IMG/VR virus record: IMGVR_UViG_3300042878_000577
Coordinates: 1-21,027 of that record
Source: a virus
Reading direction: 5' to 3' (one strand)
DNA: 21,027 bases
The notes below the pieces were generated by a model, which worked only from the letters and a program-made list of their open reading frames with translations, made no database searches and was not told the origin of the DNA. Of the stretch, positions 14,528 through 19,728 are shown one piece after another. Both the position numbers and the translations under genes were made by a program. The first letter of the stretch is position 1; every line of letters starts with the position of its first letter.

Positions 14528-14566
14528 GTTGTATAGTCAAAATTTATAGGATATAAATAAAATATA

Positions 14567-14599
14567 TTTGATTTATCTAAATATATATTTGTATATTTG
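14567..14599 (+). promoter_or_regulatory. Bacteroidota-type promoter for the 85-aa gene
   Basis: TATATTTG at 14592-14599 matches the -7 consensus TAnnTTTG exactly. TTTG at 14567-14570 matches the -33 element, and the 21-nt spacing is within the known range. It drives transcription rightward from about 14605, just after the late-unit terminator. Confidence 0.75.
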
Positions 14600-14636
14600 C
14601 ATTATAAAAGTAATCAAAAAAACAAAAAAAGAAATT

Positions 14637-14905: not shown

Positions 14906-14954
14906 TATAAATAAAATAAATAATAATTAATAAATATATATTTGTATATTTGCA
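14906..14954 (+). promoter_or_regulatory. Second Bacteroidota-type promoter, near-duplicate of the first
   Basis: TATATTTG at 14945-14952 is an exact -7 element. The 24 nt at 14931-14954 are identical to 14578-14601 of the upstream promoter, and 14906-14918 repeats 14552-14564. The -33 position here is weaker because the TTTG is lost. It would transcribe the 44-aa gene and the following early genes. Confidence 0.65.
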
Positions 14955-14972
14955 ATATCAAAATAAAAAAAC

Positions 14973-15451: not shown

Positions 15452-15483
15452 AAAAAATAGGCGCAGTAAATACGCTGCGCCTA
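15450..15483 (-). terminator. Minus-strand intrinsic terminator
   Basis: A 9-bp perfect stem (15458-15466 with 15475-15483, six G-C pairs, 8-nt loop) is followed on the - strand by eight Ts (15457 down to 15450). On the + strand no T-run follows, so the signal reads only leftward. Confidence 0.65.
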
Positions 15484-15511
15484 CAAACAAAAAGTGCAAT
15501 CATGACATTGC
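15450..15511 (-). ncRNA. Candidate minus-strand small RNA, about 60 nt
   Basis: Read on the - strand, a TACTTTTG -7-like element is followed by an 8-bp hairpin (arms 15493-15500 and 15507-15514). After it comes a 9-bp GC-rich hairpin (15458-15466 / 15475-15483) with eight Ts. These are the parts of a compact transcription unit in a gap between two + strand genes. The extent is estimated from the promoter position and the T-run. No reading frame is evident. Confidence 0.35.
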
Positions 15512-15515
15512 ACTG

Positions 15516-17010: not shown

Positions 17011-17180
17011 GAAAGTACGATGAAGAACGAAAGATAAAAAACAAAAGCCGAAAGGTATTTGCAACTAAGGTAGTGGATTATCCAGTAGAATATGTTAAGC
17101 ATCCACTAGCTGATACTGATTATAGATATAAAAGCGCATTAATTGAGAGGCGAAAAGAAAGTGTAAAGTGTAAAGTGTAA
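17007..17180 (+). CDS. Small basic protein, 57 aa, ending inside the iteron block
   Basis: The start overlaps the stop of the 80-aa gene (ATGA), arguing for translational coupling. The protein is strongly basic (MRKYDEERKIKNKSRKVFAT at the N-terminus, ERRKESVKCKV at the C-terminus) with a central VVDYPVEYVKHPLADTDYRY segment. No recognised family. The last six codons are formed by the first repeats of the iteron array (17160-17182), so its C-terminus is shared with a DNA signal. A basic protein beside a repeat array could be a DNA-binding accessory, but there is no motif to support that. Confidence 0.5.
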   Translation: MRKYDEERKIKNKSRKVFATKVVDYPVEYVKHPLADTDYRYKSALIERRKESVKCKV

Positions 17181-17346
17181 AGTAGTTTACACTTAAAAAA
17201 ATAGGTGCAATAAAAAAAAACGCAAAAAAAAAGTGTAAAGTAGTGTAAAGTTTACACTTTATTATAAAAAAGTATTGATTATCAATGAAATACACATATA
17301 AGTAGTGTAAAGTAGTGTAAAGTTACTTTACACTTAGTTTACACTT
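17160..17346. repeat. Iteron-like array, candidate replication origin or operator
   Basis: Eleven copies of the 8-nt core AGTGTAAA lie in three clusters. The seven direct copies start at 17160, 17167, 17174, 17232, 17242, 17304 and 17314. The four inverted copies (TTTACACT) start at 17186, 17251, 17327 and 17338. Each cluster contains a dyad with a short spacer (4, 1 and 5 nt), and the spacing is 7 nt in cluster 1 and 10 nt in clusters 2 and 3. The DNA between clusters is AT-rich and contains a perfect ATTGAT/ATCAAT palindrome (17274-17286). No gene lies in 17181-17541. The position just upstream of the helicase and primase genes fits an origin; an operator for the promoter at 17380 is the alternative. 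Confidence 0.7.
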
Positions 17347-17379: not shown

Positions 17380-17387
17380 TATCTTTG
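17380..17387 (+). promoter_or_regulatory. Promoter for leader RNA and helicase-methyltransferase
   Basis: TATCTTTG is an exact -7 TAnnTTTG match followed by C. A T-tract (17357-17367) occupies the -33 region. Transcription should start at about 17393 and run into the structured leader. Confidence 0.6.
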
Positions 17388-17392
17388 CATTA

Positions 17393-17522
17393 GTTCTTTA
17401 AATAACAAGTTGAGAGGGAAATCAACTGAAACAAAAAATAATTCAATGGCCTTACTGGCCTTGCTACCTTGTAATATTTTATATTGCAAATTTCCCTTAG
17501 CAAAGCCAGTAAGGCTTTTTTT
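17393..17522 (+). ncRNA. Structured leader RNA or small RNA with loop-to-hairpin pseudoknot and terminator
   Basis: The non-coding stretch after the promoter folds into a compact set of mutually compatible helices. H1 pairs 17408-17413 with 17422-17427 (6 bp, 8-nt loop). H2 outer pairs 17449-17459 with 17505-17515 (11 bp, perfect). H2 inner pairs 17461-17466 with 17498-17503 (6 bp, one mismatch from the outer helix). H3 pairs 17469-17477 with 17481-17489 (9 bp, one wobble). The H1 loop at 17415-17421 is complementary over 7 nt to 17491-17497, the only free strand inside H2. Seven Ts follow. It could be an attenuator for the gene starting at 17542 or a free-standing small RNA. I do not recognise a known RNA family. 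Confidence 0.55.
17449..17522 (+). terminator. Terminator / attenuator at the end of the leader RNA
   Basis: An 11-bp perfect stem (17449-17459 with 17505-17515) directly precedes seven Ts (17516-17522), 20 nt before the start codon at 17542. The 5' arm can also fold on itself (GGCC at 17448-17451 with GGCC at 17457-17460), which would disrupt the terminator. Confidence 0.65.
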
Positions 17523-17541: not shown

Positions 17542-19728
17542 ATGACAAAAGATTACAAAGAGTTTCTAAATGAGAAACGAAAAACGTTTATTGAAAGTGG
17601 GTTTGAAATAAATGATGATGAGTTAAATCCATTATTAAAAGATTTTCAAAAGTATGGCGTAAAAACATCAATCCGAAAAGGTAGATTTGCTTTATTTTTT
17701 GATTGTGGATTGGGTAAAACATTTTGCCAATTAGAATGGGCAAAGCATGTAAGAAAATACACAAATAAAAAAGTATTAATATTAGCACCTTTAGCAATTG
17801 TAGAGCAAACAAAAAAAGAAGCTGCAAAGTTTAATATAGAAGTTGATGTTTTTGATATAACAAATTATGACCAGTTAAAAAATATAAATTGTTCAATATA
17901 TTCTGGAGTAGTGTTAGATGAAAGTAGCATATTAAAAGGTAGGGATGGTAAATTATCTACATTAATAATTGAAACATTTAAATCAACTCCTTATAAGTTA
18001 GCATGCACAGCTACACCTTCGCCAAATGACCATATGGAATTAGGGCAGCATTCAGAGTTTTTAGGCGGAATGAGCTATTTAGAAATGCTAGCAATGTATT
18101 TTGTGCATGATGGTGGTGAAACTAGCAAATGGAGATTAAGAAAGCATGCTGAGGATGTATTTTGGAAATATGTATCTACATGGAGCATGGCTATTGATAA
18201 TCCTAAAACTTTAGGATTTGATAGTAATGGTTATGATTTGCCAGAAATAGAATATATTGAGCATATAATACCAGTTAATAATGATACAAATAATTTGTTT
18301 GGTGATGCAATGGTAAGTGCTACTGATTTACATAAAGATTTAAATAAAAGTTTTGATTTAAGGATTGCAAAAACATTAGAACTTGTAAATTCAAATAATA
18401 ACCAATGGATAGTTTGGGGATTAAAAAATAATGAAACAGATACGCTTGCAAAATTACTTAATGATAGTATTAATGTGCAAGGTTCAGATAGTGCAGAATA
18501 TAAAGCTAAATATCTAAATGGTTTTGCAAATGGTGATTTTAAAACATTAATTACAAAAACTAGCATAGCATCTTTTGGTATGAATTACCAACAATGCCAT
18601 CAAATGGTATTTATGAGTTATGATTTCAAGTTTGAGGCATTTTATCAAGCAGTTAGAAGATGTTATAGATTTGGGCAAAAGAATAAAGTACAAGTCCATA
18701 TTCTTATACCTGAAAGCCAAGTAAATGTAAGACAAACAATATTAGATAAACAAGCGCAACATTTTGAAAGAATAGCTGAAATGAGTAAATACAGCGCAAA
18801 TAACGATTATAAAAAAGCAAAATCAAGAGTTAAAATTATGAATAAAGAAATTAAAACAAATAACTATCATTTGATAAATGGAGATTGTGTTCAAGAAACA
18901 AAGAAACTAGATGATAACTGCGCTGATATAGTAGTATTTAGTCCTCCATTTGCAGAATTATATGTATATTCTGATAAAGAAGAAGATATGGGAAATGTAA
19001 GCGATTATAAGCAATTTGAGCAGCATTTTAAATTTCTAATACCAGAATTAAAAAGAACATTAAAGCCTGGAAGGATATGCGCTATTCATTGCATGGATTT
19101 ACCAATACAAAAAGGTAAGGAAGGTTATATTGGGTTGAGAGATTTTAGCGGTATGCTTATTAATTGGTTTCAAAATGAAGGATTTATTTACCATTCAAAA
19201 GTTACTATTTGGAAAAACCCAGTAACTGAAATGCAAAGGACTAAGGCATTAGGATTATTACATAAAACTATTAAAAAAGATAGCGTAATGAGTAGAGTAG
19301 GTATTCCTGATTATGTTTTATTTTTTAGAAATGAAGGAGAAAATGAAACACCAATAACACATCAAGATATTAATCCAAATAGTTTAGATTATTTACCAGT
19401 AGATTTATGGCAAAAATATGCTAGTCCAGTTTGGGATGATGTAGATTATAGCAGAACACTTCAATATAGAAGTGGTAGAGATGGAAATGATGAAAAGCAT
19501 ATTTGTCCTTTACAACTTGATACAATTGAGAGAATTTTACATTTATATTCTAATGAAGGTGAAACCGTATTAAGTCCATTTGGTGGGATTGGTAGTGAGG
19601 GATGTTGTGCAATTAAAATGAATAGAAAATCAATATCAATAGAATTAAAAGAAAGCTATTTTAAAATAAATGAAAATAACCATAAATCATTTGTTGAAGA
19701 AAAAAATAGTGTACTAACTTTATTCTAA
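17542..19728 (+). CDS. SNF2-type helicase fused to a DNA methyltransferase
   Basis: 728 aa. Residues about 30-430 are a superfamily 2 helicase/translocase: GLGKT (56-60, Walker A), DESS (126-129, Walker B position), TATP (156-159) and QAVRRCYRFGQ (369-379, motif VI of SNF2-like enzymes). Residues about 440-715 are a DNA amino-methyltransferase: SPPF (467-470, catalytic motif of the N4-cytosine/N6-adenine class) followed by SPFGGIGSEG (678-687, SAM-binding motif) and an acidic residue in ISIELKES. That is the beta-class motif order. It may modify phage DNA against host restriction or mark it for replication. The start at 17542 is chosen because an upstream in-frame extension falls in the structured leader, and because the start context matches that of the 109-aa gene. 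The primase gene follows after 12 nt. Confidence 0.85.
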   Translation: MTKDYKEFLNEKRKTFIESGFEINDDELNPLLKDFQKYGVKTSIRKGRFALFFDCGLGKTFCQLEWAKHVRKYTNKKVLILAPLAIVEQTKKEAAKFNIEVDVFDITNYDQLKNINCSIYSGVVLDESSILKGRDGKLSTLIIETFKSTPYKLACTATPSPNDHMELGQHSEFLGGMSYLEMLAMYFVHDGGETSKWRLRKHAEDVFWKYVSTWSMAIDNPKTLGFDSNGYDLPEIEYIEHIIPVNNDTNNLFGDAMVSATDLHKDLNKSFDLRIAKTLELVNSNNNQWIVWGLKNNETDTLAKLLNDSINVQGSDSAEYKAKYLNGFANGDFKTLITKTSIASFGMNYQQCHQMVFMSYDFKFEAFYQAVRRCYRFGQKNKVQVHILIPESQVNVRQTILDKQAQHFERIAEMSKYSANNDYKKAKSRVKIMNKEIKTNNYHLINGDCVQETKKLDDNCADIVVFSPPFAELYVYSDKEEDMGNVSDYKQFEQHFKFLIPELKRTLKPGRICAIHCMDLPIQKGKEGYIGLRDFSGMLINWFQNEGFIYHSKVTIWKNPVTEMQRTKALGLLHKTIKKDSVMSRVGIPDYVLFFRNEGENETPITHQDINPNSLDYLPVDLWQKYASPVWDDVDYSRTLQYRSGRDGNDEKHICPLQLDTIERILHLYSNEGETVLSPFGGIGSEGCCAIKMNRKSISIELKESYFKINENNHKSFVEEKNSVLTLF

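Follow-up and report, generated by a model that had tools for sequence, protein, structure and literature searches.

Several described RNAs share parts of the architecture reported here. The HK022 put and Bacillus EAR elements are processive antitermination leader RNAs that have a conserved sequence core and no terminator of their own at the end. The phage leaders considered here resemble them as putative cis-acting structured leaders that open phage or operon transcripts, and differ from them by ending in their own terminator-like hairpin and by having no conserved core. The pRNA of phage phi29, a packaging RNA of about 120 nt present in one copy per phage, engages in intermolecular pairing: it too has two complementary loops that covary between phages, but the leaders come several to a phage, each before a start codon and each with its own loop sequence, called X below. 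The HMP-PP (thiS) riboswitch is an aptamer embedded in a terminator and, like our leaders, builds a pseudoknot-forming structure into the hairpin of an intrinsic terminator ahead of a start codon (PMC6478431). In that riboswitch, however, a small conserved aptamer lies within one hairpin, whereas in the phage leaders the pairing partner is a separate 5' hairpin, joined by 6-9 base pairs that vary freely; no ligand pocket is conserved across subfamilies, and the leaders sit at phage replication genes. Finally, the rplJL (L10-L12) leader of B. subtilis, a protein-controlled attenuator, has the same order of promoter, folded leader, terminator and gene; unlike the phage leaders, where none is evident, it has mutually exclusive antiterminator folds (PMC4538822).

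The window, which is the entire IMG/VR virus record of 21,027 bases, holds such a leader on its + strand, in front of a gene for a SNF2/ResIII-type helicase fused to an N6/N4 DNA methyltransferase (17542-19728, + strand, 728 amino acids). The promoter -7 element that had been placed just upstream is indeed there: the box TATCTTTG (17380-17387) agrees with TAnnTTTG, the sigma-A consensus of flavobacteria at positions -12 to -5 (PMC9723704), and the RNA should therefore start near 17392. The first hairpin, H1, pairs AGTTGA (17408-17413) with TCAACT (17422-17427) around the loop X, AGGGAAA (17415-17421). An A-rich linker, GAAACAAAAAATAATTCAATG (17428-17448), carries the position of AAAANATT, a motif enriched in the family. 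The terminator hairpin H2 follows: its outer arms, GCCTTACTGGC (17449-17459) and GCCAGTAAGGC (17505-17515), form 11 perfect pairs, and its inner arms are TTGCTA (17461-17466) and TAGCAA (17498-17503). Within it stand H3 (17469-17477/17481-17489, nine pairs including one G-U) and X', TTTCCCT (17491-17497), the exact 7/7 complement of X. Here X' is not apical in the top hairpin: it occupies the 3' strand of an internal loop that separates H3 from the inner part of H2. The predicted termination point is a U-tract of seven T (17516-17522), 19 nt from the start codon at 17542. The initial annotation had thus drawn all four helices correctly to the base, along with the loop pairing and the T-run.

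The minimum free energy of the window leader is -39.7 kcal/mol against -22.5 in shuffles (z -4.7), a value that 0 of 200 shuffles reach, and H2 by itself has a folding z of -7.4. The initial annotation had also noted that the 5' arm of H2 could form a small alternative hairpin, and read this as a possible terminator/antiterminator switch. The hairpin, GGCC-TTACT-GGCC, is present in the window and is not common to the family, so the switch finds no support; no conserved antiterminator or other alternative fold was found across the family, and nested folds compete in some members. Two further candidates in the window were set aside. The boxA-like sequence GTTCTTTAAA at 17393 is not common to relatives. 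The leader might be coding, as the frame that begins at TTG-17410 runs without a stop into the helicase. In most homologous loci, however, the match starts only at residues 1-4 of the ATG form, and the extension is thus not conserved.

A search of IMG/VR with the helicase-methyltransferase yielded 80 loci. In about 20 of them, the sequence before the gene is wholly different and the plan is the same as in the window: a sigma-A promoter box, a 5' hairpin with loop X, an A-rich linker, a long hairpin bearing X', a U-tract and the start codon. Many orthologous helicase genes among these loci have no leader, which is consequently not essential to the gene. Seventeen helicase leaders, including that of the window with its complement of 7 nt, were parsed blind to pairing: the longest complement between X and X' averages 5.3 nt within a leader versus 3.4 nt between leaders, and the within-leader sum was reached by none of 20,000 permutations. 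Searching phages and plasmids for direct DNA similarity gave no match, and a pattern for the window's own H1 with the loop left free matched only unrelated coding sequence. Against the model of subfamily R1, the window scores 18.7 bits (E 0.081) with an insert of 42 nt, level with a coding stretch. Since it has no close relative and its model score is marginal, its membership is based on architecture, exact loop complementarity and position at an orthologous gene.

Two pattern searches of IMG/VR fixed only the flanks and left X and X' free. The first, TGAAGT N6 CANTA ... GGMGGC N7 ACA, returned 37 matches: the 21 that lie in an AT-rich promoter context are all paired at 6 of 6 positions, with six different X cores, while the 16 stray matches in unrelated contexts pair at just 1-4 of 6. 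The second, GAGTAGAG N8 CTCGAAAGCC, returned 52 stretches representing 34 distinct members, contigs of 42 and 266 kb among them; every one of the 34 has an upstream 7/7 complement of its X', for 13 different X' sequences. In the A3 and A4 alignments, all kissing-helix cells are paired, with changes on both sides in 6 of 8 and 6 of 7 pairs respectively; none of 500 shuffles matches this covariation, and slid controls are far lower too. Compensatory changes, which the initial annotation had proposed as a check, are therefore present in the relatives. The kissing duplex, computed as a free duplex, has a median energy of -9.9 kcal/mol.

A covariance model of subfamily A4, with the pseudoknot left out, recovers members of other subfamilies (E of 3e-4 at best, then 0.001, 0.005, 0.014 and so on), which argues that the subfamilies form one family. 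Within A4 the unpaired UAGAG and GAAA are invariant, an observation that is not independent because both belong to the search pattern; no compact invariant nucleotide core was found across subfamilies.

Relatives can also be found through architecture, by promoter-anchored scans over the loci and whole contigs with a reversed loop as control. A first, loose scan with no intergenic filter rose little above the control; stricter scans were clearly above it, with 28 real intergenic matches against 3 for the control at a score of at least 38. Many of these matches stand at other genes of the same phages, and one phage carries several leaders with different X. Copies occur in cultured Flavobacterium phages: two in FCV-1 (KY979235), at 35.87-35.98 kb and 40.35-40.45 kb, and three in hattifnatt9-1. 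About 50 members were curated, partly chosen by eye; unselected evidence comes from both pattern searches and from the gene-anchored test. Sequence differs from one leader to the next and loop complementarity is kept. In most curated members the long hairpin has X' in its apical loop, next to the 3' side, so that the interaction of X with X' is a kissing loop, of 6-9 bp across the family. The motif AAAANATT occurs in 16 of 50 linkers, where 1.3 are expected.

The internal-loop position of X', beside a separate H3, is shared by the window and three loci, L065:1468-1580, L068 (2702-2817) and L089:14797-14919. These three have two loop pairings, one between the H1 loop and X', the other between a linker word, such as TGCTTAC, and an H3 loop, GTAAGCA. 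In another comparison, the loop word GTGAGACGC belongs to the 5' loop of some phages, while other phages have it in the 3' partner (L106:7798-7919 and L087:14343-14454 versus L111:14485-14590 and L132:7209-7305), and GTAGTGC is likewise found in opposite arms (L086 at 40.4 kb versus L121): judging from these words, leader arms seem to swap roles between phages.

The initial annotation did not recognise a known family, and the leader is indeed absent from Rfam 15: neither the window nor, at ten further loci, the element has a match at E<=1, and a weak L20_leader match (E 0.18; 27.6 bits versus the 58.7 needed) falls outside the element. A search of the main texts of openly available papers found nothing on such a leader family. 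The search for chromosomal homologues with the helicase brought up a contig of one Bacteroidetes MAG together with a clostridial relative. The RNA model run against 295 genomes of the class of that MAG gave a single weak match, probably due to chance from its sequence, and the family thus looks phage-borne. From comparison of sequences, then, we conclude that the folded leader in the window is real and a member, by architecture and gene position, of a widespread and apparently undescribed family of phage leader RNAs.

What these RNAs do can be approached from their 3' ends. Counted from the G/C base of the long hairpin, the T fraction reaches 0.9 at +2 to +4 and is back to background by about +13; at least 5 T are found in the 8 nt after the hairpin in 86% of 49 members, versus 10% before other ORFs, and the U-tract of A4, which the search pattern did not include, is near-invariant. 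Some members have a U-tract that begins several nt past the G/C stem (GGGGCTTAACTTTTT). A same-strand ORF starts 10-64 nt past the U-tract in 45 of 48 pattern-found members, within 35 nt in 35 of these 45, the commonest distance being 17, and at 36-64 nt in the other 10. Such distances leave no evident room for a second promoter. The window itself has what is expected of an attenuator leader: a promoter, a leader, a G/C-based hairpin with its U-tract, and a start codon after it, features that support the initial suggestion of a structured leader of the attenuator type. The promoter-proximal position (by consensus), the conserved stems, the covarying kissing helix, the U-tract and the adjacency to start codons are established at the level of sequence. 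The reading that we prefer, with a probability of roughly 60%, is that the RNA is a cis-acting leader that attenuates transcription, of a kind present in multiple copies, with its terminator hairpin docked to the 5' hairpin.

The same features could belong to a 5' UTR structure with a role in mRNA protection or in setting translation; the hairpin would then not work as a terminator, and the U-rich stretch would help ribosomes bind. The start codon comes soon after the hairpin, the predicted 5' end is no more than about 5-20 nt from H1, the U-tract is at times offset from the stem, and Flavobacterium mRNAs have no Shine-Dalgarno sequence, their initiation being tuned by mRNA structure (PMC6847099). 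Yet the peak of T right past the stem base and its quick decay are those of intrinsic terminators, and the start codons of the 10 distant members are too far for a direct role at the ribosome site; we regard this explanation as unlikely, if worth keeping in mind.

The initial annotation had also offered a discrete phage small RNA, which here would act in trans once freed by termination, the neighbouring gene being incidental. Its own promoter, the terminator-like end and a compact stable fold of about 85-130 nt would all suit such an RNA. Against this, a same-strand ORF abuts 45 of 48 members, and two of the remaining three run off their contig; no conserved trans target is visible, as X varies freely with X', and one phage holds several leaders of different X. 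The adjacency to ORFs favours a cis-acting leader of the gene, and makes a free small RNA rather improbable. It is more doubtful still that the leaders act on RNA polymerase as processive antiterminators of their operons, in the manner of put or EAR: they are 5'-terminal, structured and pseudoknotted RNAs found on several transcription units per phage, with conserved unpaired motifs, but the element ends in its own terminator-like hairpin and U-tract, and no put-like conserved sequence core is seen. A metabolite riboswitch with a terminator-embedded aptamer, for which the pseudoknot inside the terminator hairpin of the HMP-PP (thiS) riboswitch is a precedent (PMC6478431), is very unlikely given that the subfamilies share no compact invariant set of nucleotides and that the genes concern replication and homing endonucleases rather than a metabolic pathway. 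As for inverted repeats acting in DNA, as protein operators or by chance, X and X' do form such repeats, but they differ widely while staying complementary, with separate stems around each and an orientation always from promoter to gene, whereas an operator would keep its sequence, and this explanation is strongly disfavoured.

For the attenuator leader, the following course of events can be proposed; that it is transcribed, terminates and regulates is what we infer. Transcription would begin a few nucleotides upstream of H1, the first hairpin to fold. X' would emerge ahead of the 3' arm of H2 and dock on H1, and completion of H2 on the compact docked RNA would form the terminator: some polymerases would halt at the U-tract, after about 130 nt in the window leader and 85-120 nt in its relatives, and others would read into the gene. 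Our preferred guess is that docking promotes termination, since without the kissing interaction a large open loop remains at the top of the terminator hairpin; the opposite sign is possible. Termination might be relieved by a factor or by timing. Since leaders precede several replication and DNA-metabolism genes in the same phages, we suggest that conditional termination at the leaders tunes or times this group of genes. What governs the termination would be the kissing interaction, probably together with a phage or host factor common to the leaders, for which the conserved unpaired parts (the linker AAAANATT, UAGAG and GAAA) would be candidate contact sites.

The genes downstream of the leaders encode helicase-methyltransferases, DUF6291-type and other initiator-like proteins, prim-pol and other primase/helicases, and DEAD-type helicases; others encode HNH, NUMOD4 and GIY-YIG endonucleases, AntA and KilA-N-like (antirepressor) proteins, and small proteins of about 70 amino acids, the initiator-like, GIY-YIG and KilA-N assignments having been made by eye. 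Free-standing homing endonuclease genes carry the leader (L086:40457-41149, L183, L187 and L218; NUMOD4/HNH by Pfam, GIY-YIG by eye), and it may on this account travel with mobile genes. A second short hairpin element, TAGTTATTGGTTATCTTAAAACCATTA-like, follows the U-tract and precedes the start codon in genes for a family of proteins of about 70 amino acids (MERTKIIFCSAENSN.., MANVKINFYGTEKSE..) in L185, L188, L201, L212, L231 and L233, and also in L158, L161, L163 and L111; it looks like a separate site of protein or translation control.

Other features of the window deserve mention. Directly upstream of the leader promoter, eleven GTGTAAA/TTTACAC heptamers are packed in about 180 bp (17160-17343), and smaller clusters occur in L092 (13341-13583) and L097 (5440-5681). 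The heptamers in the window form a putative iteron or operator array and a possible replication origin. Near-identical promoter stretches (tatatatttgtatatttgca) precede small genes at 14560-14600 and 14925-14955, and two terminator-like hairpins lie on the - strand at 15457-15514.

A wider proposal, which we advance tentatively and with the odds somewhat against it, is that of a phage-wide RNA regulon, in which dozens of Bacteroidota phages would place self-docking leaders before their replication, recombination and homing-endonuclease genes, conserving only loop complementarity, and a common factor or folding timer would relieve termination at a set moment of infection. To our knowledge, gene timing in these phages is poorly understood, and no described mechanism for it was found in the literature searched. 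One recurrent leader at helicase, primase, initiator, endonuclease and antirepressor genes would give a handle on it, and the leader is testable now because copies exist in phages of Flavobacterium columnare that are in culture (FCV-1 and its group). The family also offers a natural series of kissing-loop sequences in which to study the effect of co-transcriptional tertiary pairing on termination, and it suggests an undescribed mode of control of phage gene timing.
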